From Stigmatella erecta (GTDB lineage: Bacteria > Myxococcota > Myxococcia > Myxococcales > Myxococcaceae): DNA of 64,000 nucleotides. Position 1 is the stretch's first letter, and the number at the start of each line of letters is the position of its first letter. Below are positions 2,404 through 13,795 of the stretch, one piece after another. The translations under genes were made by a program, and so were the position numbers. The notes beneath the pieces are model-generated. The model was given only the letters and a program-made list of their open reading frames with translations, did not search any database and was not told where the DNA came from. The DNA is taken from the NCBI RefSeq assembly GCF_900111745.1, contig NZ_FOIJ01000002.1, positions 558,001-622,000 of the forward strand, in the 5' to 3' direction.

Positions 2404-2631
2404 GTGAGCCCCTTTACAGTCCCCGCAGCACCCCCCAGCCGTCAGCGTCCAGCCGGGACGTTCGTCCGAGCGGACCTGGTAAAATGCGCTGCGATGGCCG
2501 TCCAGAAGGCCGCCGCCGTGGGCGCCCCCGTGACCGCTCCTCCCGAGAACCAGCCCTGGGGCGAACGCATTGCCCGCCTTGTCGACCCGACGGGCATCGA
2601 AGTCATCGTCGCCGAGCCGATTGGCTCGTGA
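2404..2631 (+). pseudogene. Decayed glyoxalase/VOC-superfamily C-terminal fragment
   Basis: The only recognisable part is the last 45 or so codons (about 2494-2631), reading AVQKAAAVGAPVTAPP, then QPWGERIARLVDPTG and VAEPIGS before a stop. This closely resembles the C-terminus of VOC/glyoxalase-like proteins, where a PWG-R-DPxG motif ends the fold. No N-terminal half or credible start lies upstream; the preceding codons look random. I read it as the tail of a gene whose front has been lost. Apart from this fragment the 2275-2602 gap shows only a 6-bp hairpin at 2354-2371 and no other gene. Confidence 0.5.
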
Positions 2632-5557
2632 GCGATGGCTCCCCTGAACGGCCCCCCCACCCGCGCAGCGGAGCATCCTGGCCCAAGACGATAAAGGGCG
2701 CCCAATGGTAGGGATGGGGATGGATGGCACGCAGCCAGCGCATGGCCTCGCGCATGGCGGCGGCTCGGCCCTGACCCGCCAGCAGGTTGCGGTAGTAGGC
2801 CTCCATCAGCTGCTGGGTGGAGTCGTCGTTCACCTTCCACAAGCTCATCACCACGGTCTCCGCCCCCGCCACGATGAAGGCACGGCGCAGTCCATAAACC
2901 CCCTGCCCCAGCTTGACGTCGCCCCGGCCCGTGTCGCAGGCGGACAAGACCACCAGTTGGGTGCCCCACAGGTTGAGGCCCGCCAGTTCCAGCGCGGTCA
3001 CCATCGTGCCATCCCACCGGGAGGGAATGCCGCTGGAGGCACCCTCTACCGGCTCGCTTGCCCCAGCCAAGAAGAGACCGGAGCGCAGCAGGGGGTCCGA
3101 GGGGCTCTCGGTGAACACGTCCTCTGCCAGGGCCCCGAAGTGGCCCACGGCGCGGGACTGCGAAGGCCCGGAGACATCCTCCAGGAAGAAACCATGGGTC
3201 GCCAGGTGGAGAATACCGGGAGCAGCAAGGTGCAGCAGCCGTTCCTTGGTGGCTTCGGGACCGAGGAAGAGCCTGGCCTGGGGAAGCAGGCGCTGGATGG
3301 CCTCCGCTTCCTGGCGGGTGCCGGGCAGAGGGCCCAGCGCCGCCCCACGCACGGAGGAAGCGCGGTCTCCCCTGCCAGAACGCTCCGGCAGAGCGGAAAC
3401 CCCTGCCAAGGTGAAGGCTTGGGCGGCAGGCGAGGCACGGAAATCAGGATCCGCCAGGACAGCGATGGAGCCGGCGGGGGCTGTCTTCTGGGAACGGGGC
3501 AGCAGGTCCTTGCCTGAGGTGACGGAGCTGAAATCGAAGGTGTCCACCAGGAACCGGTCGCCATCGTGCAGGACCGCAAAGGGCACCATCCCCAGCTGGC
3601 CATCCGGTGAGAGGATGAGACGGTGGGCTTTTCCCAGCAACGGCAAGAGCGGCTGGAAGACAAGCTGGTAGAGCGCCTGGGCAAGAGGTTGGAAGGCCGC
3701 ATCCCGGTTGGCCAGGGCATCCCGCAGGCGCGAGGCGGCGGTGTCGATGGGCCCAGCGGGCCCCAGATCACAGAAGCGGACGGTGGCATCCGGCAAGAGC
3801 ACCAAGGCCAGGTAGCGCAGCGGGTAGGACCGCGAGCTCATGGGCATGCCGGCCTCGGGCACGAGCGGGCGGTCCTCATAGGCAATGAACTCGATGAGGG
3901 CCCCCTCCTGGGGCAAGGCCGCGGCGACTCGGCCGGCGATGCGGGAGAGCGGGGGCAGCGCGGCCAGCGCACGCAGCGGGGCGGAGCGCTTGGCCAGCTC
4001 GGTTTCGAGGGCATTGCCCTGCCCCGTGAGCTCCTGGAGCCGGTGCTGATAGGCCTTGGGTGAGAGCGAGCCAGGCCCCTGAAGCGAGAGGCTGGCCAGC
4101 TGATTGCGCAGCCCTCTCAGCCGCGAGAAGGTCCCCTGTTCCTCGAGGCCCAGGCTCCGGTAGACAGCATGGGAGATGCCGGCCGTCTCCTCCACGGAAC
4201 GCCCCTTGAGGAGCAGGGCCGCACCCAGCGCCAACTCTCTCACGCGAGCGTTGCCAGGATAAGCACGCACCAGCGCATAGAGCCGCTCCTCATGGGTGCG
4301 CAGATGCTGGAGAAAGCTGGCCAGGCGCGCCTCGGAGAAGTCGAGCGCCTCGTGGCGCAGGCGCAGCTCGGAGATGGCGAACGCGCGCGCGAAGAGGGGA
4401 ACGGCCGCATCGGCCTGGCCTTGCGCCAACTTGAGTACGGCGAGATCATTGAGTGAGACGGCCACCTCGGGATGGCTCTTGCCGAGTGTCCCTTGCTGAA
4501 TGGCGAGCGCTCGCTCGAACAGGGGTTCAGCCCGGCCGTACTCTCCCTGAGCCCGGTAGATGTTGGCGAGGATGTTGAGCGAAGCCCCCACCTCGGGATG
4601 GTTCTTGCCAACGGCCGCTTCCGCGATGGCAATCGCGCGTTCGCAGAGCGGCTCTGCCCGGCCGGGCAATCCCTGCTCCAGGAAAAGCGAAGCCAGGTTG
4701 CTGAGCATCTTGGCCACGCCGAGATGCTTCTCGCCAAAGGCCTCTTCCGTGATGGCGAGCGCACGCGCGTACAGAGGCTCGGCCCGGCTGTACAACCCCT
4801 GGGCTCTGTAGACGTTGGCCAGGTTGTTGAGGACATTGCCCGTGGTGGGGTGATTCTTGCCCAGAGAGGCCTCCGCCACGGCGAGCGCCCGCTCGTACAG
4901 GGGCGCCGCCCGGCCATACATTCCCTGCTCGTAATAGAGGGAGGCGAGGTTATTGAGCGAGCCGACCATGGTGGAGTGATTCCCGCCAAAGGCCTCTTCC
5001 CGGATCTCGAGCGCGCGGAGGTACAGCGGCTCGGCCCGGCCATACAGCCCCTGCACCCGGAGGAGGTTGGCCAGCGTATTGAGCGATTGGGCGACCTCGG
5101 GATGTTTTTTGCCGAGGGCCGCCTCGCGGATGGCAAGCCCCCGCTCACAGAACGGCTCCGCCCGGGCATAGAACCCTTGGGCCTTGTAGAGGGTCGCCAG
5201 GGCGTTGAGTGATTGGGCAACGCTGAGGTGGTTCTTGCCGAGGGACGCCTCCCGGACGGCGAGCCCCCGTCGAAGCAAGGACTCGGCCCGGGCAAAGTCG
5301 CCCTGCACCTGGTGCAGCTCACCGAGCAGGTTCAGGCTGTCGGCGGTCTCGGAATGCAGGCCTCCGAGCGAGGCCTCCCTCAGGGCGAGAGCCCGCGCCG
5401 CGGGGACGGCGGCCTCGGCATACTGGCCCGCCGCCTGGAGCGCCTTCGCCTCGGCATAGGCCGTCCGCGCCTCCTGCAACCGCGCATCAGAGGGTGTCCC
5501 CTCCCCGGCCGCTGCTCCGGCGCAGCAACACAGGAGCGCCACCGTCATCCACCGCAT
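2603..5557 (-). CDS. Exported TPR-CHAT domain protein (putative caspase-like protease)
   Basis: About 984 residues. The start is placed at the ATG at 5557, directly before a hydrophobic segment (MTVALLCCCAGAAAG) that looks like a signal peptide; upstream in-frame starts reach 5626. Residues ~30-430 hold about nine kinesin-light-chain-like TPR units of roughly 42 residues, each with a variant of LGKNHPEVAQSLNTLA. The C-terminal third is a CHAT domain (caspase HetF associated with TPRs). The presumed catalytic dyad is His788 in LHLATHGFF and Cys874 in VVLSACDTG, followed by GAETVVMSLW and WAPFIVLG. CHAT domains are clan CD cysteine proteases, usually cytoplasmic; an exported version is less common. 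The partner and the substrate are unknown. It is a single gene, with a solitary promoter region upstream. Confidence 0.85.
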   Translation of the reverse strand: MRWMTVALLCCCAGAAAGEGTPSDARLQEARTAYAEAKALQAAGQYAEAAVPAARALALREASLGGLHSETADSLNLLGELHQVQGDFARAESLLRRGLAVREASLGKNHLSVAQSLNALATLYKAQGFYARAEPFCERGLAIREAALGKKHPEVAQSLNTLANLLRVQGLYGRAEPLYLRALEIREEAFGGNHSTMVGSLNNLASLYYEQGMYGRAAPLYERALAVAEASLGKNHPTTGNVLNNLANVYRAQGLYSRAEPLYARALAITEEAFGEKHLGVAKMLSNLASLFLEQGLPGRAEPLCERAIAIAEAAVGKNHPEVGASLNILANIYRAQGEYGRAEPLFERALAIQQGTLGKSHPEVAVSLNDLAVLKLAQGQADAAVPLFARAFAISELRLRHEALDFSEARLASFLQHLRTHEERLYALVRAYPGNARVRELALGAALLLKGRSVEETAGISHAVYRSLGLEEQGTFSRLRGLRNQLASLSLQGPGSLSPKAYQHRLQELTGQGNALETELAKRSAPLRALAALPPLSRIAGRVAAALPQEGALIEFIAYEDRPLVPEAGMPMSSRSYPLRYLALVLLPDATVRFCDLGPAGPIDTAASRLRDALANRDAAFQPLAQALYQLVFQPLLPLLGKAHRLILSPDGQLGMVPFAVLHDGDRFLVDTFDFSSVTSGKDLLPRSQKTAPAGSIAVLADPDFRASPAAQAFTLAGVSALPERSGRGDRASSVRGAALGPLPGTRQEAEAIQRLLPQARLFLGPEATKERLLHLAAPGILHLATHGFFLEDVSGPSQSRAVGHFGALAEDVFTESPSDPLLRSGLFLAGASEPVEGASSGIPSRWDGTMVTALELAGLNLWGTQLVVLSACDTGRGDVKLGQGVYGLRRAFIVAGAETVVMSLWKVNDDSTQQLMEAYYRNLLAGQGRAAAMREAMRWLRAIHPHPYHWAPFIVLGQDAPLRGWGGRSGEPSLTSQSARRR

Positions 5558-5799
5558 CCATCGGAAATCCTGCCCTTCGCAGTCTCTGTACCGGCGCATG
5601 CTGCGGACACTGCTCCTTTGTGTCATCTCCCGCGCAGCCAGACATCAATGCAGCCACACCAAAAAGATTCAAAGCAACTGGCGGCCGCAACATGCGTCTC
5701 CCTGGCGGGCGAGAAGGGGATCTCGCACCGCCGGTGAGGAGCCGCTGTGCCGGAAAATGATGCAGAGAATTTATCCGCTTTTGAACGCGCTTGGAATGC

Positions 5800-8700
5800 T
5801 CAGCTTTCGGCGCCCGGGGTGCTGAGCGGCCGCCGCTGGTGCTGGGCCTGGTGCTGCGGGAACATGGCCACGAAGAACTCCGACCAGCCTCCCATGCGCA
5901 CCCGGACCACGTCGTACTTCTCCGGCTCCAGCGCCGCCTGCTTGAACGTCTCGGGATTGGCGCAGGTAATGGTGAGGACGTTGGAGCCCTGCCCCTGGGC
6001 GAACGCGGCCAGCACCCGCTCCAGCGCCTCCACCGGGAAGTCCTCGCGGATGTTGAAGTCCGTGGGGGCGCCGCTCGTGTAGGACTCGGCGCCCGTCCCC
6101 GTGTAGCCGGAGAGCGCCCGGAGCATGGCCACCTCCTGGTGGTCCACGGCCTGGTCCGCGAAGCTGGGCGAGGGGCTCAGGTCCGAGGCCAGCGTCTCCC
6201 CCAGCCGCCGGCCATCCGCCGAGGCCCCGCAGGTGGCGCCGAACTCGACGTAGTTCTCGAAGGTCCCCGCGCCGGGCTGCACCTGGAACCCGCCAAAGGG
6301 CTTCTCCGGCGTTCCGAGCCGCTGGGCCAGGGCCACCATCTTCGCGGCCGTCGGCTCGGCCGGCTCGGTGAAGACCCGCACCGCCGTCTCCGCCACGCGC
6401 TGGAGGAGGTCGCTGCCGAAGCGGTCCACCTCCTCGTTGCCGCGGCCGTATCGGGGCAGCGCCAGGGCCACCCGGCGCAGTTCCTGGAAGCGCTCGGACT
6501 TGGCCTCGATGCGGGCTGGCCCCGCCAGGGTGCTGACGAAGGGCTCGTCCATCGTGAAGCCCCAGTCACAGATGAGCGCCTCCACCAACTCCGGGAGCGA
6601 GGTCACCGCGGTGTCCCGCTCGAACACCATCTTCCGGATGGCGTACAGCGAGTTGATCACCGTGGACAGGCCCGTGAAACACGGGGCGACCATGTTGTAG
6701 CGCGCCCCGCCTTCGTAGAGGTCCAAGCCCTTGTCGATGCAGTCGTCGATGAACATCGACAGCAGCGGGGACGGGCACACGGCACTCATCGTGCCGAACA
6801 CGGCCACCAGCCCGTCCACCTGCTTGGCGTACATCCAGCTCAGGTGCTGGAAGAAGAGCTCCTGGAGCTGCTCGAAGCTGCGGATCTCCGTGGGCGGTGG
6901 CGAGGTGAAGGACACACGCTGGCCGCGGAAGTACATGGGGCCCGCCGTGCTCCAGCTCTTGCCCTGGTTGAGCGCGGCCTCGAGCGGCGTGAGGGCCGTC
7001 ATTCCCCCCAGGGTGAACCAGTTCTGGCCGACGATCTGCGGCTCGTAGCAGCCATCGCACGCGTAGTCGCGGGCCGCCTGGAGCACCACCTCGCTGCGCC
7101 AGGCGCGGCCAGCCTTCTGGGCCACGGGCGTGAAGGCCGTGAGCTGGGTGCCCTGCCCCACGCCATCCCCGCTGTGGAGCAGCCCGGGGATGATCTTCTC
7201 GTCGCTGAGCAGGATGGGATGGGCTCCGCCGCTGAGCAGGGCGAGCGCCGCCTCGTGCAGGTACTCGGCGGGGATGTCCTTGCGCACGCGCAGCGAGAGG
7301 CACGGCGCGTTGAGCGGCAACCGCCGGGCCGCGCGCAGGCAGAACAGCGTGATCTTGTTGTACGCGGGCTTGCCCTCGCCGGGCGAGCCGTCCGCCACGG
7401 TGCCCCCCACCGTCACCTGCTGGATCCACTGGTTGTTCGCGGCGCCCTGGGGGTAATTGCCGCTCATGCCGCCCATGGCCAGGTTGCCGAAGGGCTGGTG
7501 GTCCTCGACGAACTGGCGGTTGAGCTGCACCTTCTCGCCCAACTTGATCCAGAAGCAGTCGATGATCTCCTGCGCCTGCTCGTCATCGAGGGTGCCCGCG
7601 GCCACATCCCGCTCGTAGAAGGGGAAGAGCAGCTGATCCAGCCGGCCCACGGCGGTGGGCTCCCCCACCAGGTGCAGGCAGGAGTGCAGCGTGAAGAGGA
7701 GCTGGGCGGCTTCGAGCAGCGTCTGGGGCCTCTCGGTGGACAGCCGCGTCATCCGCTCCTGGAGCTTCAGCAGGTTGTCCCGCTCGGCGCGCTGCCCGGG
7801 CGGCAGGCCAGCGGCCAGCTTGCCCGCGAGGGCCGCGTAGGCCACGCAGTGGTCCCGGACGCCTTCGAGCGCGAGGAGGACCCCCCGGTAGAACTGGCGC
7901 TTGGTCTCGTCGGTGATTCCGTCGTGACGGGCCTGCACCTCGGCCATCAGGCCGCCGAGGCCGCTGTCCAGCGCCCGCTGGAAGCCGGGCACCAGGTGGC
8001 CCACGCCGGAGGCATGGCTCAGCCCGGCGAAGAAGTTGCCGATCTGCTCCTCCTGCCGGGCATAGTCGATGACGTAGCGGCCCTGGCCCAGCCCCAGGTT
8101 GGGCAGGGCTCCGACGATGAGCTCCACCGGATGGATGCGGTAGGTGTCCGCGCCGTTGATCCAGTTGCCCTGCGCGTCCTGGCGCCTGCCCCGGAAGCCG
8201 TAGGCCTCGCTGGCGAAGACGCTCCCCAGGCTGACCTTGATGGCCCACCCCATGCGCTCGACGACGGAGAGCCCCATCACCTCGCGGGCCTTCGCGGGCC
8301 CATACTGGCGCGCCACGTAGGCACACAGGTGCTCCAGCTCCTGCTGCGCCCGGCTGAAGTACCAGTTGTCCTGCCACCGGGAGAAGGCGTCCGAGAGCAG
8401 CTGCAGCACCCGGTTGGACGGGGGCAGGTGCGTCCGGCGCTTCTCGCCGCTCATCGTGGCCATCTGGAACAGGTAGTTCTTGTGGTTGTAATGCATGTAC
8501 CCGTTGGCCGAGGACACGTCGAAGTGCCGGTCCAGGCGGGTCCAGTCCACGCCCGGGAAGCGCTTCCAGTTCTGCGTCTCGTGGGACTGGAGCGGCACAG
8601 GCTCCAGGTTGAGGTCCGTCTGGCTGGGGATGTAGTAGAAGCCGCCCAGGTTGGAGCGGACCTCCGAGAGGAGCCGGTCCCGCATGAAGCCGGGCTTGTC

Positions 8701-9726
8701 TCCAATCTGCTGCATCATGATGGTTTCGAGCGCGCGGACACTCCGCGCATACCCGGCGAAGTAGATGCCCGCCTCATCGCGGAGGTTGGCGCCCTTGGCG
8801 CGCAGCTCCGCGCTCTCCACCGTGTTCGCATGACCGAAGGGCAATCCCAGCCGGAGCACCTGCTGGGTGTTGCCCTGCGCGTCCTGGATGCGGGCGCTCT
8901 TGATGTGGCTGCGGCTGTCCTGCGTGGGAATGAGGATGTCCGCCGTGGTGCGCCCCACGAGGTCCTCGACCTGCTGGGGGCTCATGTCGAGGATGTGCTC
9001 CCAGTTGATCTCGAAGCGCTGCGCGATGACGAACGAGGCGCCCATGTGCGCGGGGTCCTCGAACCCGACGAGCGTCTGCTCTTGAATGGAGACGGGGTCC
9101 GACGGGTTGTTGAGGTTCTCGGAGAAGCGGCAGCCAAGCACCTTGCCGCCGCGCTTGTCCGGGCGCGTGGACTTGGTGGCGGCCTTCTGGTGGTCCGCCG
9201 GGCCGGAGCGCATGCACTGCTCCTCCTCCTCCAGCCGCCTGCGGATGAAGGCGAAGACCGCATCGCAGTGGGTCTCCTCATCGGACTTGATGTGAAACCA
9301 GAGGTCGCCCTGGGAATCGACGAACGTCCCATGCGAGCGTGAGAACACGGCGGACCGGGAGGCCGGCGCCTCCTGTTCCGGAAAGGCCAGCTTCATCCCC
9401 TCGGGCGGCTCGGTGCCTTCCTCGGCGCACCACTCTTGCCAGAGCCGGAAGCCCACCCCCACGATGGCGGAGGTGTTGGCGCTGCCGTAATGGGTATGGA
9501 TCTCCTCGCGAACGTCTTTCATCAGCCGCTGGAGCACCCCCTTCGTCAGCGGCTTTCCGGTTCCCGAGGGCATGCGCCAGAACGTGGCGAACACGGCGTA
9601 AGGGGAGGGATACACCAATCCCCGCTGAACCAATGACCAGAGGTCATGGCTGAGCTGGTTTCCTTGACGGGTGGACAGAGACTTCGCGGACTGGTGCGCT
9701 TGTGCCAGGACAGACGGCGTTCTCAT
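5800..9726 (-). CDS. Fusion of DyP-type peroxidase domain and glycyl radical enzyme (PFL family)
   Basis: About 1308 residues in one open frame. ATG at 9726 is chosen because GAGG lies 6 nt upstream; the TTG at 9768 is weaker. Residues ~40-375 match the DyP-type haem peroxidase fold: GDLWFHI, SHIKSARI with the putative proximal haem ligand His274, Arg292 in VLRLGLPFG, and GIYFAGYARSV. The usual GxxDG catalytic motif is replaced by RFSEN, so the catalytic Asp appears as Glu203. Residues ~470-1308 form a full-length pyruvate formate-lyase-type glycyl radical enzyme. Landmarks are HPVELIVGALP, GVGHLVPGFQRALDSGLGG, the thiyl cysteine motif DGCYEP (Cys893, Glu895), the GASADGRRLGETLASD segment and the glycyl radical site VRMGGWSEFF with Gly1280. 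The substrate is unknown; the CxE cysteine loop suggests the dehydratase/PFL2-like side rather than PFL proper. A PhyH-type oxygenase gene lies 65 nt upstream on the same strand. No glycyl-radical activase is present in the window. Confidence 0.8.
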   Translation of the reverse strand: MRTPSVLAQAHQSAKSLSTRQGNQLSHDLWSLVQRGLVYPSPYAVFATFWRMPSGTGKPLTKGVLQRLMKDVREEIHTHYGSANTSAIVGVGFRLWQEWCAEEGTEPPEGMKLAFPEQEAPASRSAVFSRSHGTFVDSQGDLWFHIKSDEETHCDAVFAFIRRRLEEEEQCMRSGPADHQKAATKSTRPDKRGGKVLGCRFSENLNNPSDPVSIQEQTLVGFEDPAHMGASFVIAQRFEINWEHILDMSPQQVEDLVGRTTADILIPTQDSRSHIKSARIQDAQGNTQQVLRLGLPFGHANTVESAELRAKGANLRDEAGIYFAGYARSVRALETIMMQQIGDKPGFMRDRLLSEVRSNLGGFYYIPSQTDLNLEPVPLQSHETQNWKRFPGVDWTRLDRHFDVSSANGYMHYNHKNYLFQMATMSGEKRRTHLPPSNRVLQLLSDAFSRWQDNWYFSRAQQELEHLCAYVARQYGPAKAREVMGLSVVERMGWAIKVSLGSVFASEAYGFRGRRQDAQGNWINGADTYRIHPVELIVGALPNLGLGQGRYVIDYARQEEQIGNFFAGLSHASGVGHLVPGFQRALDSGLGGLMAEVQARHDGITDETKRQFYRGVLLALEGVRDHCVAYAALAGKLAAGLPPGQRAERDNLLKLQERMTRLSTERPQTLLEAAQLLFTLHSCLHLVGEPTAVGRLDQLLFPFYERDVAAGTLDDEQAQEIIDCFWIKLGEKVQLNRQFVEDHQPFGNLAMGGMSGNYPQGAANNQWIQQVTVGGTVADGSPGEGKPAYNKITLFCLRAARRLPLNAPCLSLRVRKDIPAEYLHEAALALLSGGAHPILLSDEKIIPGLLHSGDGVGQGTQLTAFTPVAQKAGRAWRSEVVLQAARDYACDGCYEPQIVGQNWFTLGGMTALTPLEAALNQGKSWSTAGPMYFRGQRVSFTSPPPTEIRSFEQLQELFFQHLSWMYAKQVDGLVAVFGTMSAVCPSPLLSMFIDDCIDKGLDLYEGGARYNMVAPCFTGLSTVINSLYAIRKMVFERDTAVTSLPELVEALICDWGFTMDEPFVSTLAGPARIEAKSERFQELRRVALALPRYGRGNEEVDRFGSDLLQRVAETAVRVFTEPAEPTAAKMVALAQRLGTPEKPFGGFQVQPGAGTFENYVEFGATCGASADGRRLGETLASDLSPSPSFADQAVDHQEVAMLRALSGYTGTGAESYTSGAPTDFNIREDFPVEALERVLAAFAQGQGSNVLTITCANPETFKQAALEPEKYDVVRVRMGGWSEFFVAMFPQHQAQHQRRPLSTPGAES

Positions 9727-9791: not shown

Positions 9792-10586
9792 TCAGATCCC
9801 TCTCATGCTGTCACCGCCAACGCCCAGGGCTCGCTGAATGGCTGCTTCGACAGGGGATAAGGGGTTGCCTCGCGGCAACAGGCTGGGGGGATGCCGGGGA
9901 AGGAGCGGGGGCTGCGCCATGAACCGCGGCTGTGTTCCGCGATGGGATTGCGCGGAATGCACAAGGAACGGATGGCAGAGATAGACCGTGCCCGCGGGGC
10001 CCGTGGCCAGGGCTTCCGGACACCCGGCGGTTTCACCAAATCCATTCGCGGCCATCTCCCGCAGCGAGAGGCCTTCCTCGCCCGCCGGGGCCAGCATGCG
10101 TGCCATGTGAAGGTGAGAGCCCACCCGGATGCGGGTAGGCGCATCCGCCTCGCCCACATCCGAGAACAGGAACAGCATCAAGAGCGCACGCCCCTTCGAG
10201 GCGGCATTCGCCCGCCACGACATGAAATCCGGATCCTCCAATCCAAAGCTCACATCGATGTGCCAGCCCGCATCGCCTGGGTCTTCCAGCGAGGGGAACC
10301 GCACCGGAAACGTCCCCATGCTGCGGCAAGGCAGCCAGCGGCCTTCGCCCACGAGCTGATCAAACGCCGCATGCAAGACCGCCGTATTGGCGGCCTCGAC
10401 GAAGGGCCGCTGCGCATACATGCCCAGCCGGATGACCGGCTTCGTCCAGGTGCTGGGATTGGCCGGATCGCAGTGTGTGTCCCGCCAGAGGATCGTCCGC
10501 GCCTCGTCCGCCAGGCCGCGCGGAAAGGCCTGATCTATCCGGACGAACCCGTCCCGCATGAACTGCTCGATTTGCTCGCCGGTCAT
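9792..10586 (-). CDS. Phytanoyl-CoA dioxygenase (PhyH) family Fe(II)/2-oxoglutarate oxygenase
   Basis: 264 residues, the usual PhyH length. The N-terminus (EQIEQFMRDGFVRIDQAF) is the typical start of the family. The iron facial triad is probably His109 and Asp111 (WHIDVSF) with His210 in HPFLVHSAQSHRG; Arg221 would bind the 2-oxoglutarate carboxylate. The protein hydroxylates an unknown substrate using O2. It lies 65 nt upstream of the DyP-glycyl-radical fusion gene on the same strand, so the two are probably co-transcribed. That is striking, since one needs O2 and the other is poisoned by it. The last ~35 residues are Pro/Arg-rich and look poorly conserved. Confidence 0.8.
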   Translation of the reverse strand: MTGEQIEQFMRDGFVRIDQAFPRGLADEARTILWRDTHCDPANPSTWTKPVIRLGMYAQRPFVEAANTAVLHAAFDQLVGEGRWLPCRSMGTFPVRFPSLEDPGDAGWHIDVSFGLEDPDFMSWRANAASKGRALLMLFLFSDVGEADAPTRIRVGSHLHMARMLAPAGEEGLSLREMAANGFGETAGCPEALATGPAGTVYLCHPFLVHSAQSHRGTQPRFMAQPPLLPRHPPSLLPRGNPLSPVEAAIQRALGVGGDSMRGI

Positions 10587-11144: not shown

Positions 11145-12545
11145 TCACGCGAGCCCGCGCACGATGGCCACGGCCTTGCGCAGGTCCTCCTCGAAGTGAA
11201 CGCGGGCCTGGACCCGGGCCCGCTCATCCGGCATGCGCAGGAGCGCCGAAGGGTGGAAGGTCGCCATCCACGCCTTCGCCCAGGGCGTCTCGAAAATCTG
11301 TCCCCGGCTCAGGTTGATGCGAAAGCCCGGCCCCAGGAAGGACTGGGCCGCCGTGGCCCCCAGGCAGACGATCATCTTCGGCTTCACCTGCGCCACCTCC
11401 GCGTCCAGCCACGCCTTGCACGCGAGCACCTCGCGCCGGCCGGGCTTCGCGTGCAGCCGCTGCTTCTCGTCTCCCGTCCACCCGAAGTGCTTCACCGCGT
11501 TGGTGACGTAGAGCTCCTCGCGCTTCAGCCCTACCCCCGCGAGCACCTCGTCTAGGAGCTGGCCCGCCGGACCGATGAACGGCTTGCCCTCCCGGTCCTC
11601 CGTGTCCCCGGGCTGCTCGCCCACAAGCATCATCCGCGCCCCCACGGGCCCTTCCCCGAACACCGTGCGCGTGGCCCGCTCGTGCAGCGGACAGGCCCGG
11701 CACCCCTGCGCGGCCTGGGCCAGGGAGGCGAGATCCCGCTCTGCCGGAAGGAAGGGGCTGGCGGCGGACACCTCGATGTGTGGCCGGACCATGCGCTCCG
11801 TGCGCCCGGGCGCCTGGCGCACCAGCTCCGGGATGAGCCGCGCCTCGGGCAATGTGGCCCAGTGCTTCTTCGGCATCTCCGCGCGCATGGCCCTCACGTT
11901 GAGCCGCGCGGGATTGAAGACCGAGGCGTAATACGTCCCCCACATCGCTTCCAAAACGTCCGCCTCGGGCGCCTCCGAGCGTGGAACCCCCGGCCCGAAC
12001 GTGAGCCGCTCCAGGTCCCAGGACACGCTCGCTTCCGGCGTGAGGATGCTCCAGCGCATGGCGGGAAAGCGCCGCGCGAAGAAGGGCGCCACGTACCGGA
12101 CGATGAGGTGCTCCGGCCGGTGCCACGCGATGAAGTGCTCTTCCCCGTCGCGCTCCACCCTCCGGAAGCGCACGAACGCCTTCATCTTGTGCGCGTCGCG
12201 CTGCACCGCCTTGGAGAGCATGAGCACCGGGTACACATCCGGGTCGCTCTCCACCTCCAGGAGCTTGCGCTCGCCGTGGGTGAGCCGCCACAGCACCCGG
12301 TAGAGCAGGCTCCAGCGCTCGGGCGAGCGGTGGCAAGCGGCCCGCTCCGCGAGTTCCAGGAACCCTGGGGGCACGGTCAGCCCCGTCCCGGGAGCGCTCG
12401 CCGGTACAGCCTCGGGCGCGAGCAGGGAGCCCTGCCGCCCCTGTGCCTCCGTGAAGTGGACCTGCCCGGGGGGAATGCCCCGCGCGAGCAGCCCCCGCGC
12501 CGCCGCGCGGAAGGACTCCAGGCCGGCGCCCACCTCCACCCGCAT
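11145..12545 (-). CDS. udgX: DUF4130 domain - UdgX uracil-DNA glycosylase fusion
   Basis: 466 residues in two parts. The first ~250 match the DUF4130 'probable DNA metabolism protein' domain that is often fused to UdgX. The rest is a family-4-like uracil-DNA glycosylase of the UdgX group: GEQPGDTEDREGKPFIGPAG is the water-activating and iron-sulphur region, KHFGW precedes the R-loop KQRLH, and FHPSALLR is motif B. In characterised UdgX the histidine of the R-loop (KRRIH) forms a covalent bond with the sugar after uracil removal; that histidine is present here. Cysteines in CRACPLH and elsewhere can hold the [4Fe-4S] cluster. The start overlaps the stop of the upstream radical SAM gene by one base (TGATG), so the two are translated together. 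Confidence 0.85.
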   Translation of the reverse strand: MRVEVGAGLESFRAAARGLLARGIPPGQVHFTEAQGRQGSLLAPEAVPASAPGTGLTVPPGFLELAERAACHRSPERWSLLYRVLWRLTHGERKLLEVESDPDVYPVLMLSKAVQRDAHKMKAFVRFRRVERDGEEHFIAWHRPEHLIVRYVAPFFARRFPAMRWSILTPEASVSWDLERLTFGPGVPRSEAPEADVLEAMWGTYYASVFNPARLNVRAMRAEMPKKHWATLPEARLIPELVRQAPGRTERMVRPHIEVSAASPFLPAERDLASLAQAAQGCRACPLHERATRTVFGEGPVGARMMLVGEQPGDTEDREGKPFIGPAGQLLDEVLAGVGLKREELYVTNAVKHFGWTGDEKQRLHAKPGRREVLACKAWLDAEVAQVKPKMIVCLGATAAQSFLGPGFRINLSRGQIFETPWAKAWMATFHPSALLRMPDERARVQARVHFEEDLRKAVAIVRGLA

Positions 12546-13795
12546 CAAAGCTCTCCCGTGAGCGCCTCTTGGGCGGAGGTGAACAGGGAGAGCTGCGTGG
12601 CGGGCGGCTTCATCCTCTCGGCGAGGCGCGGCGAGTCCAGCAGCCCCGTGGGCCGGTGGTCCGCCGTCTGGATGAAGGGCTTCACGCGCGTGAGCGGCAC
12701 CCGCAGCCGCGCCAGGTCCGCGAGCGTCACGCGGTGCCACCGGCGGATGCGCAGCAACCGGTCCACCGTGCGAACCCCCATCCCCGGCACCCGGAGCAGC
12801 ATCTCGCGCGGTGCCCGGTTCACATCCACCGGGAACAGCTCGCGCCGGCGCAACGCCCAGGCCAGCTTCGGATCCATCTCCAGCGACAGGTCCGGAGCCT
12901 CGGACGGCGCGAGCTCGTCCACGCGGAAGCCATAGAAGCGCAGGAGCCAGTCCGCCTGGTACAGCCGGTGCTCGCGCACGAGCGGCGGGGACTTCGCGGG
13001 CAGCCGCGCATCCACCAGCGGAATCGGGCTGTAGGCCGAGTAATACACGCGCTTGAGCCCGAAGCGCGAATAGAGCCGGCTCGCGGTGTCGAGGATGGTG
13101 GCATCCGGCGTGGGCGTGGCGCCGACAATCATCTGCGTGCTCTGTCCCGCCGGGGCGAACTTCGGGGCCCGGGGGCTCTCCTTCCGCTCCGCCTTCGACT
13201 GCTCCACCCGCGTGGAGATCTCCTTCATCGTCTCGCCCGTGACGGCGAAGCTCTTCTCCGGCGCGAGCTTGCGCAGGTCGCCGTCCGTCGGCAGCTCGAT
13301 GTTGGCGCTCAGCCGGTCCGCGTACCGGCCTGCCTCGTCGATCAGCTCCTTGGACGCGCCCGGCACCGTCTTGAGGTGGATGTAGCCCTGGAACAGGTGC
13401 ACCTCGCGCAAGGCGCGCGCCACCTCGATGAGCTGCTCCATCGTGTAGTCCGGGCTCTTGATGACGCCAGAGCTCAGGAACAGGCCCTCGATGTAGTTGC
13501 GCTTGTAGAAGTCGAGCGTGAGCAGCACCACCTCCGCCGGGGTGAAGCGCGCACGGGCCGTGTCACTGGAGATGCGGTTGATGCAGTACTGGCAATCGTA
13601 GATGCAGAAGTTGGTGAGCAGGATCTTCAGCAACGACACGCACCGGCCATCCGGCGTGTAGCTGTGGCAGATGCCCATGCCCTCGACGCTGCCGAGGCCC
13701 TCCTTCGAAGCCTTGCGTTTGCCGCCGCTGCTCGAACACGAGGCGTCGTACTTCGCGGCATCGGCGAGAATCTCCAGCTTCTTGCGCACGTCCAT
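12545..13795 (-). CDS. Putative DNA modification/repair radical SAM protein
   Basis: 416 residues, the size of the radical SAM family that travels with DUF4130/UdgX proteins. The cluster motif CxxxCxxC is CIYDCQYC at about residues 64-71, followed by a standard radical SAM barrel (LFLSSGVIKSPDYT, LKTVPGA, STQMIVGATPTPD). The C-terminal third has a helix-hairpin-helix DNA-binding segment (NRAPREMLLRVPGMGVRTVDRLL). The reaction is unknown; the link to UdgX and DUF4130 argues for repair or removal of modified bases. It begins at an ATG with an open gap to the GNAT gene beyond. Confidence 0.85.
   Translation of the reverse strand: MDVRKKLEILADAAKYDASCSSSGGKRKASKEGLGSVEGMGICHSYTPDGRCVSLLKILLTNFCIYDCQYCINRISSDTARARFTPAEVVLLTLDFYKRNYIEGLFLSSGVIKSPDYTMEQLIEVARALREVHLFQGYIHLKTVPGASKELIDEAGRYADRLSANIELPTDGDLRKLAPEKSFAVTGETMKEISTRVEQSKAERKESPRAPKFAPAGQSTQMIVGATPTPDATILDTASRLYSRFGLKRVYYSAYSPIPLVDARLPAKSPPLVREHRLYQADWLLRFYGFRVDELAPSEAPDLSLEMDPKLAWALRRRELFPVDVNRAPREMLLRVPGMGVRTVDRLLRIRRWHRVTLADLARLRVPLTRVKPFIQTADHRPTGLLDSPRLAERMKPPATQLSLFTSAQEALTGEL

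Follow-up and report, generated by a model that had tools for sequence, protein, structure and literature searches.

A fusion of a DyP peroxidase and a glycyl radical enzyme in Stigmatella erecta and related genes, with a possible role for the DyP haem in radical generation

To our knowledge, all characterised glycyl radical enzymes (GREs) of the pyruvate formate-lyase (PFL) type need an oxygen-sensitive radical-SAM (S-adenosylmethionine) activase and work anaerobically, and oxygen normally destroys such enzymes. In a 64,000-nucleotide stretch of the Stigmatella erecta genome (the window), a single gene at positions 5800-9726 encodes a DyP-type haem peroxidase joined to a GRE, and this family poses the question of whether a ferryl haem can install a glycyl or thiyl radical. 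From comparison of sequences, we think it possible, at a little under an even chance, that the DyP domain replaces the radical-SAM activase in a glycyl-radical-type enzyme. The architecture itself is already known. A "Dyp_B peroxidase (fusion w. PFL)", Ccochdyprx, was described in Chaetomium cochliodes by Zamocky et al. (2016; PMC5041501), who pointed to further cases among prokaryotes and eukaryotes (citing an encyclopedia article, Strittmatter et al. 2014), inferred transfer between proteobacteria and ascomycetes, and termed its significance elusive. Thus, an earlier note on this DNA, made from the sequence alone, was mistaken in taking the architecture to be undescribed. Our literature search found no further paper describing it. 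What is new here is the mechanism proposal, the Gly-Gly-Trp (GGW) glycyl loop, the absence of an activase, a split form with an A-type DyP, and the bacterial range.

The gene shares features with, and departs from, each of the closest described systems. Like the fusions of Zamocky et al., compared here by description rather than through the fungal sequences, it has an N-terminal B-type DyP and a C-terminal PFL/GRE; unlike our account, theirs assumes a radical-SAM PFL activase and offers no mechanism (PMC5041501). It resembles canonical GREs (1,2-propanediol/glycerol dehydratase, the choline lyase CutC, and HypD) in fold, in the GCxE thiyl Cys motif and in a Gly near the C terminus, but differs in that most carriers have no cognate activase, in having GGW for xGY, and in the attached haem-protein domain. 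With B-type DyPs (Rhodococcus DypB and Streptomyces DtpB) the window protein shares the fold, the proximal His and the distal Arg, but it is fused to a GRE and has no GxxDG motif (Asp to Glu, Gly to Asn). A DyP is also required for maturation of a radical enzyme in the Streptomyces DtpA-GlxA system, a likeness limited by the facts that these are separate secreted proteins, that GlxA is a copper radical oxidase, and that DtpA is proposed to oxidise copper (PMC4736821).

The gene and the parts of its product referred to below are as follows:

5800..9726, minus strand: DyP-GRE fusion gene (P0001), 1308 amino acids, full-length in related genomes, ratio of nonsynonymous to synonymous substitution rates (dN/dS) 0.14-0.28
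8602..9621, minus strand: B-type DyP domain, about residues 36-375, from matches to PF20628, TIGR01413 and the PDB structures of DypB/DtpB, and from the fold of a relative
9103..9129, minus strand: distal haem motif RFSENLNNP, residues 200-208, aligned to FVDGTENP of DypB
8905..8907, minus strand: His274, which aligns with the His of SHV in DypB; candidate proximal haem ligand, invariant in 17 of 17 fusions
8851..8853, minus strand: Arg292, distal Arg, conserved among near-clade members and in L010, otherwise Gly or Ser in distant members
8359..8379, minus strand: linker motif RWQDNWY, residues 450-456, with Trp451, Trp455 and Tyr456 invariant (17 of 17)
5803..8316, minus strand: GRE domain, about residues 470-1308, from PF02901, the PDB structures of diol dehydratase and CutC, and the fold of a relative (Z about 29)
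7042..7059, minus strand: thiyl loop CDGCYE, residues 890-895, with the thiyl Cys893, Glu895, and Cys890 completing a CxxC
5884..5904, minus strand: glycyl loop RVRMGGW, residues 1275-1281, with an invariant Gly-Gly-Trp and Gly1280 as the radical site

The reading frame is intact throughout, from an ATG at 9726 to a stop at 5800, and the gene is single-copy in the source genome (9.2 Mb, 47 contigs, 99.99% complete). The full-length fusion recurs in another genome of the genus (97% identity), in three Corallococcus-like genomes (87%) and in Archangium (80%), which confirms it as genuine and not an assembly artefact. Purifying selection acts on both halves: relative to the three closest relatives, dN/dS was 0.13-0.25 for the DyP half and 0.15-0.26 for the GRE half. 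The earlier note had also read a DyP and a complete GRE in one unbroken frame, and the Pfam and NCBIfam matches along the 1308-residue minus-strand frame bear this out, as does the presence of every motif it had named: SHIKSARI (with His274), GIYFAGYARSV, DGCYEP (with Cys893) and VRMGGWSEFF (with Gly1280). An open frame of 1183 amino acids runs antisense through the fusion (window 5791-9342, plus strand), most likely a shadow frame in this high-GC genome.

The GRE half matched the Pfam PFL-like family (PF02901) over residues 564-1122 (E 7e-110; 369 bits against a cut-off of 24.3), and its nearest PDB structures are diol dehydratases, PflD and CutC; it scored under the cut-off of every GRE-specific NCBIfam model. 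The marks of the GRE superfamily are present, namely the barrel fold, the GCxE thiyl Cys loop and the C-terminal glycyl site. The glycyl loop has GGW where canonical GREs have xGY (those of the same order end in RVSGY or RISGY) and scored 14.4 bits, under the cut-off, with the glycyl-loop family PF01228. In an alignment of 17 fusions, whose identity to the window protein ranges over about 40-87%, Cys893, Glu895, Gly1279-Gly1280-Trp1281 and His274 are all invariant; the divergent Asticcacaulis protein, too, keeps the thiyl Cys, the glycyl Gly and the haem-ligand His. The CxxC formed by Cys890 and the thiyl Cys is found in all fusions except that of Asticcacaulis (L064), where Cys890 is replaced by Ala. 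Judged by the GCxE motif and the closest folds, the enzyme is more likely a lyase or dehydratase than a C-acetyltransferase. We conjecture that the invariant aromatic residues of the linker (Trp451, Trp455 and Tyr456) might form a radical conduit.

The DyP half matched Dyp_perox_C (PF20628) over residues 206-369 (E 5e-14, over cut-off) and the NCBIfam DyP model TIGR01413 (117.8 bits against a cut-off of 100.5), and its closest PDB matches are the B-type DyPs DypB/DtpB. It has the proximal haem His of B-type DyPs (His274). It does not have their distal GxxDG: as the earlier note had said, RFSEN stands in its place, with Glu203 at the position of the catalytic Asp in an alignment to DypB and the Gly changed to Asn. 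Across the fusions this position holds Glu in near-clade members, Asp in L010, and His in the distant members L045-L049, which also have Gly or Ser for the distal Arg. Since the position varies among Glu, Asp and His while the proximal His never does, the altered distal Asp is weak evidence against catalysis. A literature search on the distal residues of DypB, and on conflict systems with PFL, found nothing relevant.

Structure predictions agree with both assignments. We examined AlphaFold models of a relative of about 40% identity (mean predicted local distance difference test score [pLDDT] 65.5) and of residues 109-1308 of the window protein (pLDDT 62.4), in which the GRE core was well predicted. 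In fold searches with the relative's model, residues 2-300 matched DyP (Z 17.9), upholding the assignment of the N-terminal part to this fold, and residues from about 340 to 1186 matched GREs, with Z 29 to propanediol dehydratase.

We found that most carriers of the fusion have no recognised radical-SAM GRE activase, a result limited for some distant carriers by incomplete metagenome-assembled genomes (MAGs). The activase profile TIGR02494 had no match at E 1e-5 in the source genome, its same-genus relative or the Corallococcus-like genomes, and matches over its cut-off were absent from 20 of 24 carriers; only two of 19 carriers (G147 and G154) passed with TIGR02493. In the source genome the only sub-threshold PFLA match is QueE (named from the sequence by eye), and PF13353 gave only weak generic matches there and no match at all in G059, a Myxococcaceae genome in a single contig; five carriers had stronger PF13353 matches, which were NrdG-like by eye where read. 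As a control, 10 of the 11 myxobacterial genomes with canonical GREs carry an above-cut-off activase adjoining the GRE. The exceptions in the near clade, Actinophytocola and Chromobacterium, have an activase that directly adjoins a canonical PFL. The source genome thus has no recognised counterpart of the cognate activase, usually encoded next to the GRE, that marks a radical-SAM-activated GRE system. The window itself has, at 11145-13795 (minus strand), two overlapping genes; by eye, we take one to encode a UdgX-type uracil-DNA glycosylase and the other a radical-SAM protein of the DNA-repair type, a pairing already known, and the latter is not a GRE activase.

The fusion is scattered sporadically over seven or more bacterial phyla, and its carriers, judged from the named genera, are mostly aerobes. 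The near relatives include proteins from Nostocaceae cyanobacteria (68-70% identity over the best segment) and Pseudonocardiaceae (63-65%), and the full-length fusion is also found in Reyranella, Chromobacterium and Polyangium. A distant set (37-43% identity) comprises proteins from Scalindua, Gemmatimonadota, Acidobacteria, Desulfobacca, a gamma symbiont, Asticcacaulis and a second copy in Archangium, such that the Archangium genome G046 holds one fusion of the near clade (L006, 80%) and one of the distant clade (L078, 42%). Searches with a single protein through 292 genomes of the Anabaena phylum and 296 of the Actinophytocola phylum found nothing beyond the seed genome in each, and searches for the GGW pattern in 398 and 247 genomes likewise matched the seed genome alone each time; on the strength of these phylum-wide results, we consider the family rare. 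Viral contigs that we searched held no relative of the fusion. Broken or frame-disrupted matches in five Myxococcaceae genomes (G070, G073, G074, G075 and G047) look like decayed copies, suggesting loss of a dispensable gene.

Each GGW-type GRE that we found has a DyP attached or adjacent. The searches for relatives were seeded with the fused protein and are biased to fusions, a bias from which the plasmid tblastn and GGW pattern searches are free. In an Acidobacteria MAG (L077), 39 bases separate the gene for a GGW-type GRE of 888 amino acids from a complete DyP gene downstream (443 amino acids), and a Hymenobacter plasmid (L065) has the order GRE-DyP-PLD-HAD; in both, the GRE precedes the DyP, the reverse of the order in the fusion. 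At L065 9935-14206 the GRE and the DyP are each split into two overlapping frames, probably through assembly errors or decay. The L077 DyP is A-type, nearest to EfeB/deferrochelatase, and keeps the canonical residues (FDDG, the His of THIR, and the distal Arg). In a tree, the GGW GREs all grouped together to the exclusion of canonical GREs (100/100), and the split-pair GREs took a deep branch (98/100) whose exact placement is left uncertain by long branches. Since the split DyP is A-type and the fused DyP B-type, and BLAST found no meaningful similarity between the L077 DyP and the fused one of L046, a DyP appears to have been joined to a GGW-type GRE on two occasions. Alternatively, one DyP may have been swapped for another, which would imply the same functional need.

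The most economical account of a GRE with its thiyl and glycyl apparatus intact, an invariant haem ligand nearby in sequence, no activase and a recurrent DyP partner is that the radical comes from the DyP. In the mechanism that we propose, in which the loading of haem, the transfer of the radical and its direction are inferred by analogy, peroxide would convert the haem on His274 to a ferryl state (Compound I), and conserved aromatic residues would carry the oxidising equivalent to the GRE half, where it would form a radical on Gly1280 or straight on Cys893. The thiyl radical of Cys893 would then attack an organic substrate, as in other GREs. Such a radical could be remade with peroxide, and the enzyme might therefore work in aerobes. 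In class I ribonucleotide reductase an oxygen-dependent metal cofactor makes a distant thiyl radical in a GRE-like barrel; this proposed analogy differs in that the cofactor is di-metal and on a separate subunit, and the families on the cofactor side are others. Slightly less likely, in our view, is the wider reading that peroxide-driven radical generation by DyPs replaces the activase in aerobic bacteria and fungi alike, by way of two DyP classes. If so, the PFL family would gain a further radical generator, as ribonucleotide reductase has its class I generators, some DyP peroxidases would acquire a clear physiological role, and GRE chemistry would be opened to aerobic settings, with a new start for glycyl and thiyl radical chemistry. 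In favour of a link to peroxide, the Chaetomium fusion transcript rose 3-fold with H2O2 and 18.5-fold with peroxyacetic acid (PMC5041501).

Several observations weigh against a DyP-generated radical. Activases are present in G157 and G158, and G147 and G154 each have one next to a canonical PFL; an apparent focA-pflB-pflA operon of Chromobacterium alticapitis (L043 18049-22330) shares the strand of the fusion and is some 5 kb downstream of it; and a putative PFL activase was reported in C. cochliodes (PMC5041501). Peroxide activation may be weakened by the replacement of the distal Asp in most members and the loss of the distal Arg in L045-L049. Both AlphaFold models have low pLDDT at the C-terminal half of the DyP and at the glycyl loop, and we therefore do not infer the inter-domain geometry or the haem-to-Gly distance. 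Finally, since Gly1280 is conserved, an ordinary glycyl radical could come from an unrecognised radical-SAM enzyme.

This last point leads to the strongest of the alternatives, that an unrecognised or borrowed radical-SAM enzyme activates the GRE while the DyP shields the radical by clearing peroxide or oxygen. It would account for the presence of Gly1280 in all members, the canonical peroxidase residues of the split DyP and the induction of the fungal transcript by peroxides (PMC5041501). We nevertheless think it unlikely: most carriers have no GRE activase, whereas canonical GREs of the same order have one alongside, and shielding alone would not need fusion to, or a double pairing with, one activase-less GRE lineage. 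A bifunctional sequential enzyme, in which the DyP oxidises a substrate and the GRE cleaves the product (or the reverse), is in our view less likely still; although fused and adjacent-gene pairings are both typical of such enzymes, and the phosphodiesterase and HAD genes that recur nearby could indicate a catabolic route or one acting on lipid head groups, it leaves radical formation in the GRE without an activase unexplained, and the near-clade copies have no consistent partner genes.

We consider it improbable that the DyP gates the GRE as a haem or redox sensor and does no peroxide chemistry of its own. The replaced distal Asp of the window protein (E203) and the lost distal Arg of L045-L049 would fit this, but the split-pair DyP has canonical catalytic residues, and a sensor supplies no radical source. 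Thus, where the earlier note had taken the distal Asp change as a sign that the DyP may be a sensor, a shield or a radical store, the change itself stands, but the absence of an activase and the canonical split DyP favour radical generation over those roles. Lastly, that the fusion is a peroxidase on a re-used GRE scaffold that is no longer a radical enzyme seems very improbable, since, for all the missing activase, the diverged glycyl loop (PF01228 under cut-off) and the decayed-looking copies in several Myxococcaceae, the thiyl Cys, Glu895 and Gly1280 are invariant over phyla and the GRE half is under purifying selection.

The neighbouring genes offer a lead, and only a lead, to the substrate. 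PLD and HAD-like genes neighbour the GGW GRE in several distant carriers, a PF04185 phosphoesterase lies directly upstream in L036 and L038, and a PLD lies directly downstream in L038; phosphodiester or lipid head groups may thus be the substrate class. Leaving aside close species and chance families, no gene neighbour was shared by three or more genomes of the near clade. Names given to genes beside the fusion that go further than Pfam were assigned by inspection. Some copies have CHAT, TIR, trypsin or toxin-like genes nearby (in L077, CHAT and TIR genes flank the split pair), of kinds that are common in such genomes; anti-phage defence was considered and set aside, since no PADLOC model matches the fusion or the split pair. 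In the window, the fusion is followed on its own strand, after 174 bases, by the start of a gene for a TPR-CHAT protein of 1007 amino acids (2603-5626, minus strand). On the other side, a gene for a protein of 264 amino acids with no Pfam match (9792-10586, minus strand) ends 65 bases upstream of the fusion; its product looks, by eye only, like proteins of the phytanoyl-CoA dioxygenase kind.

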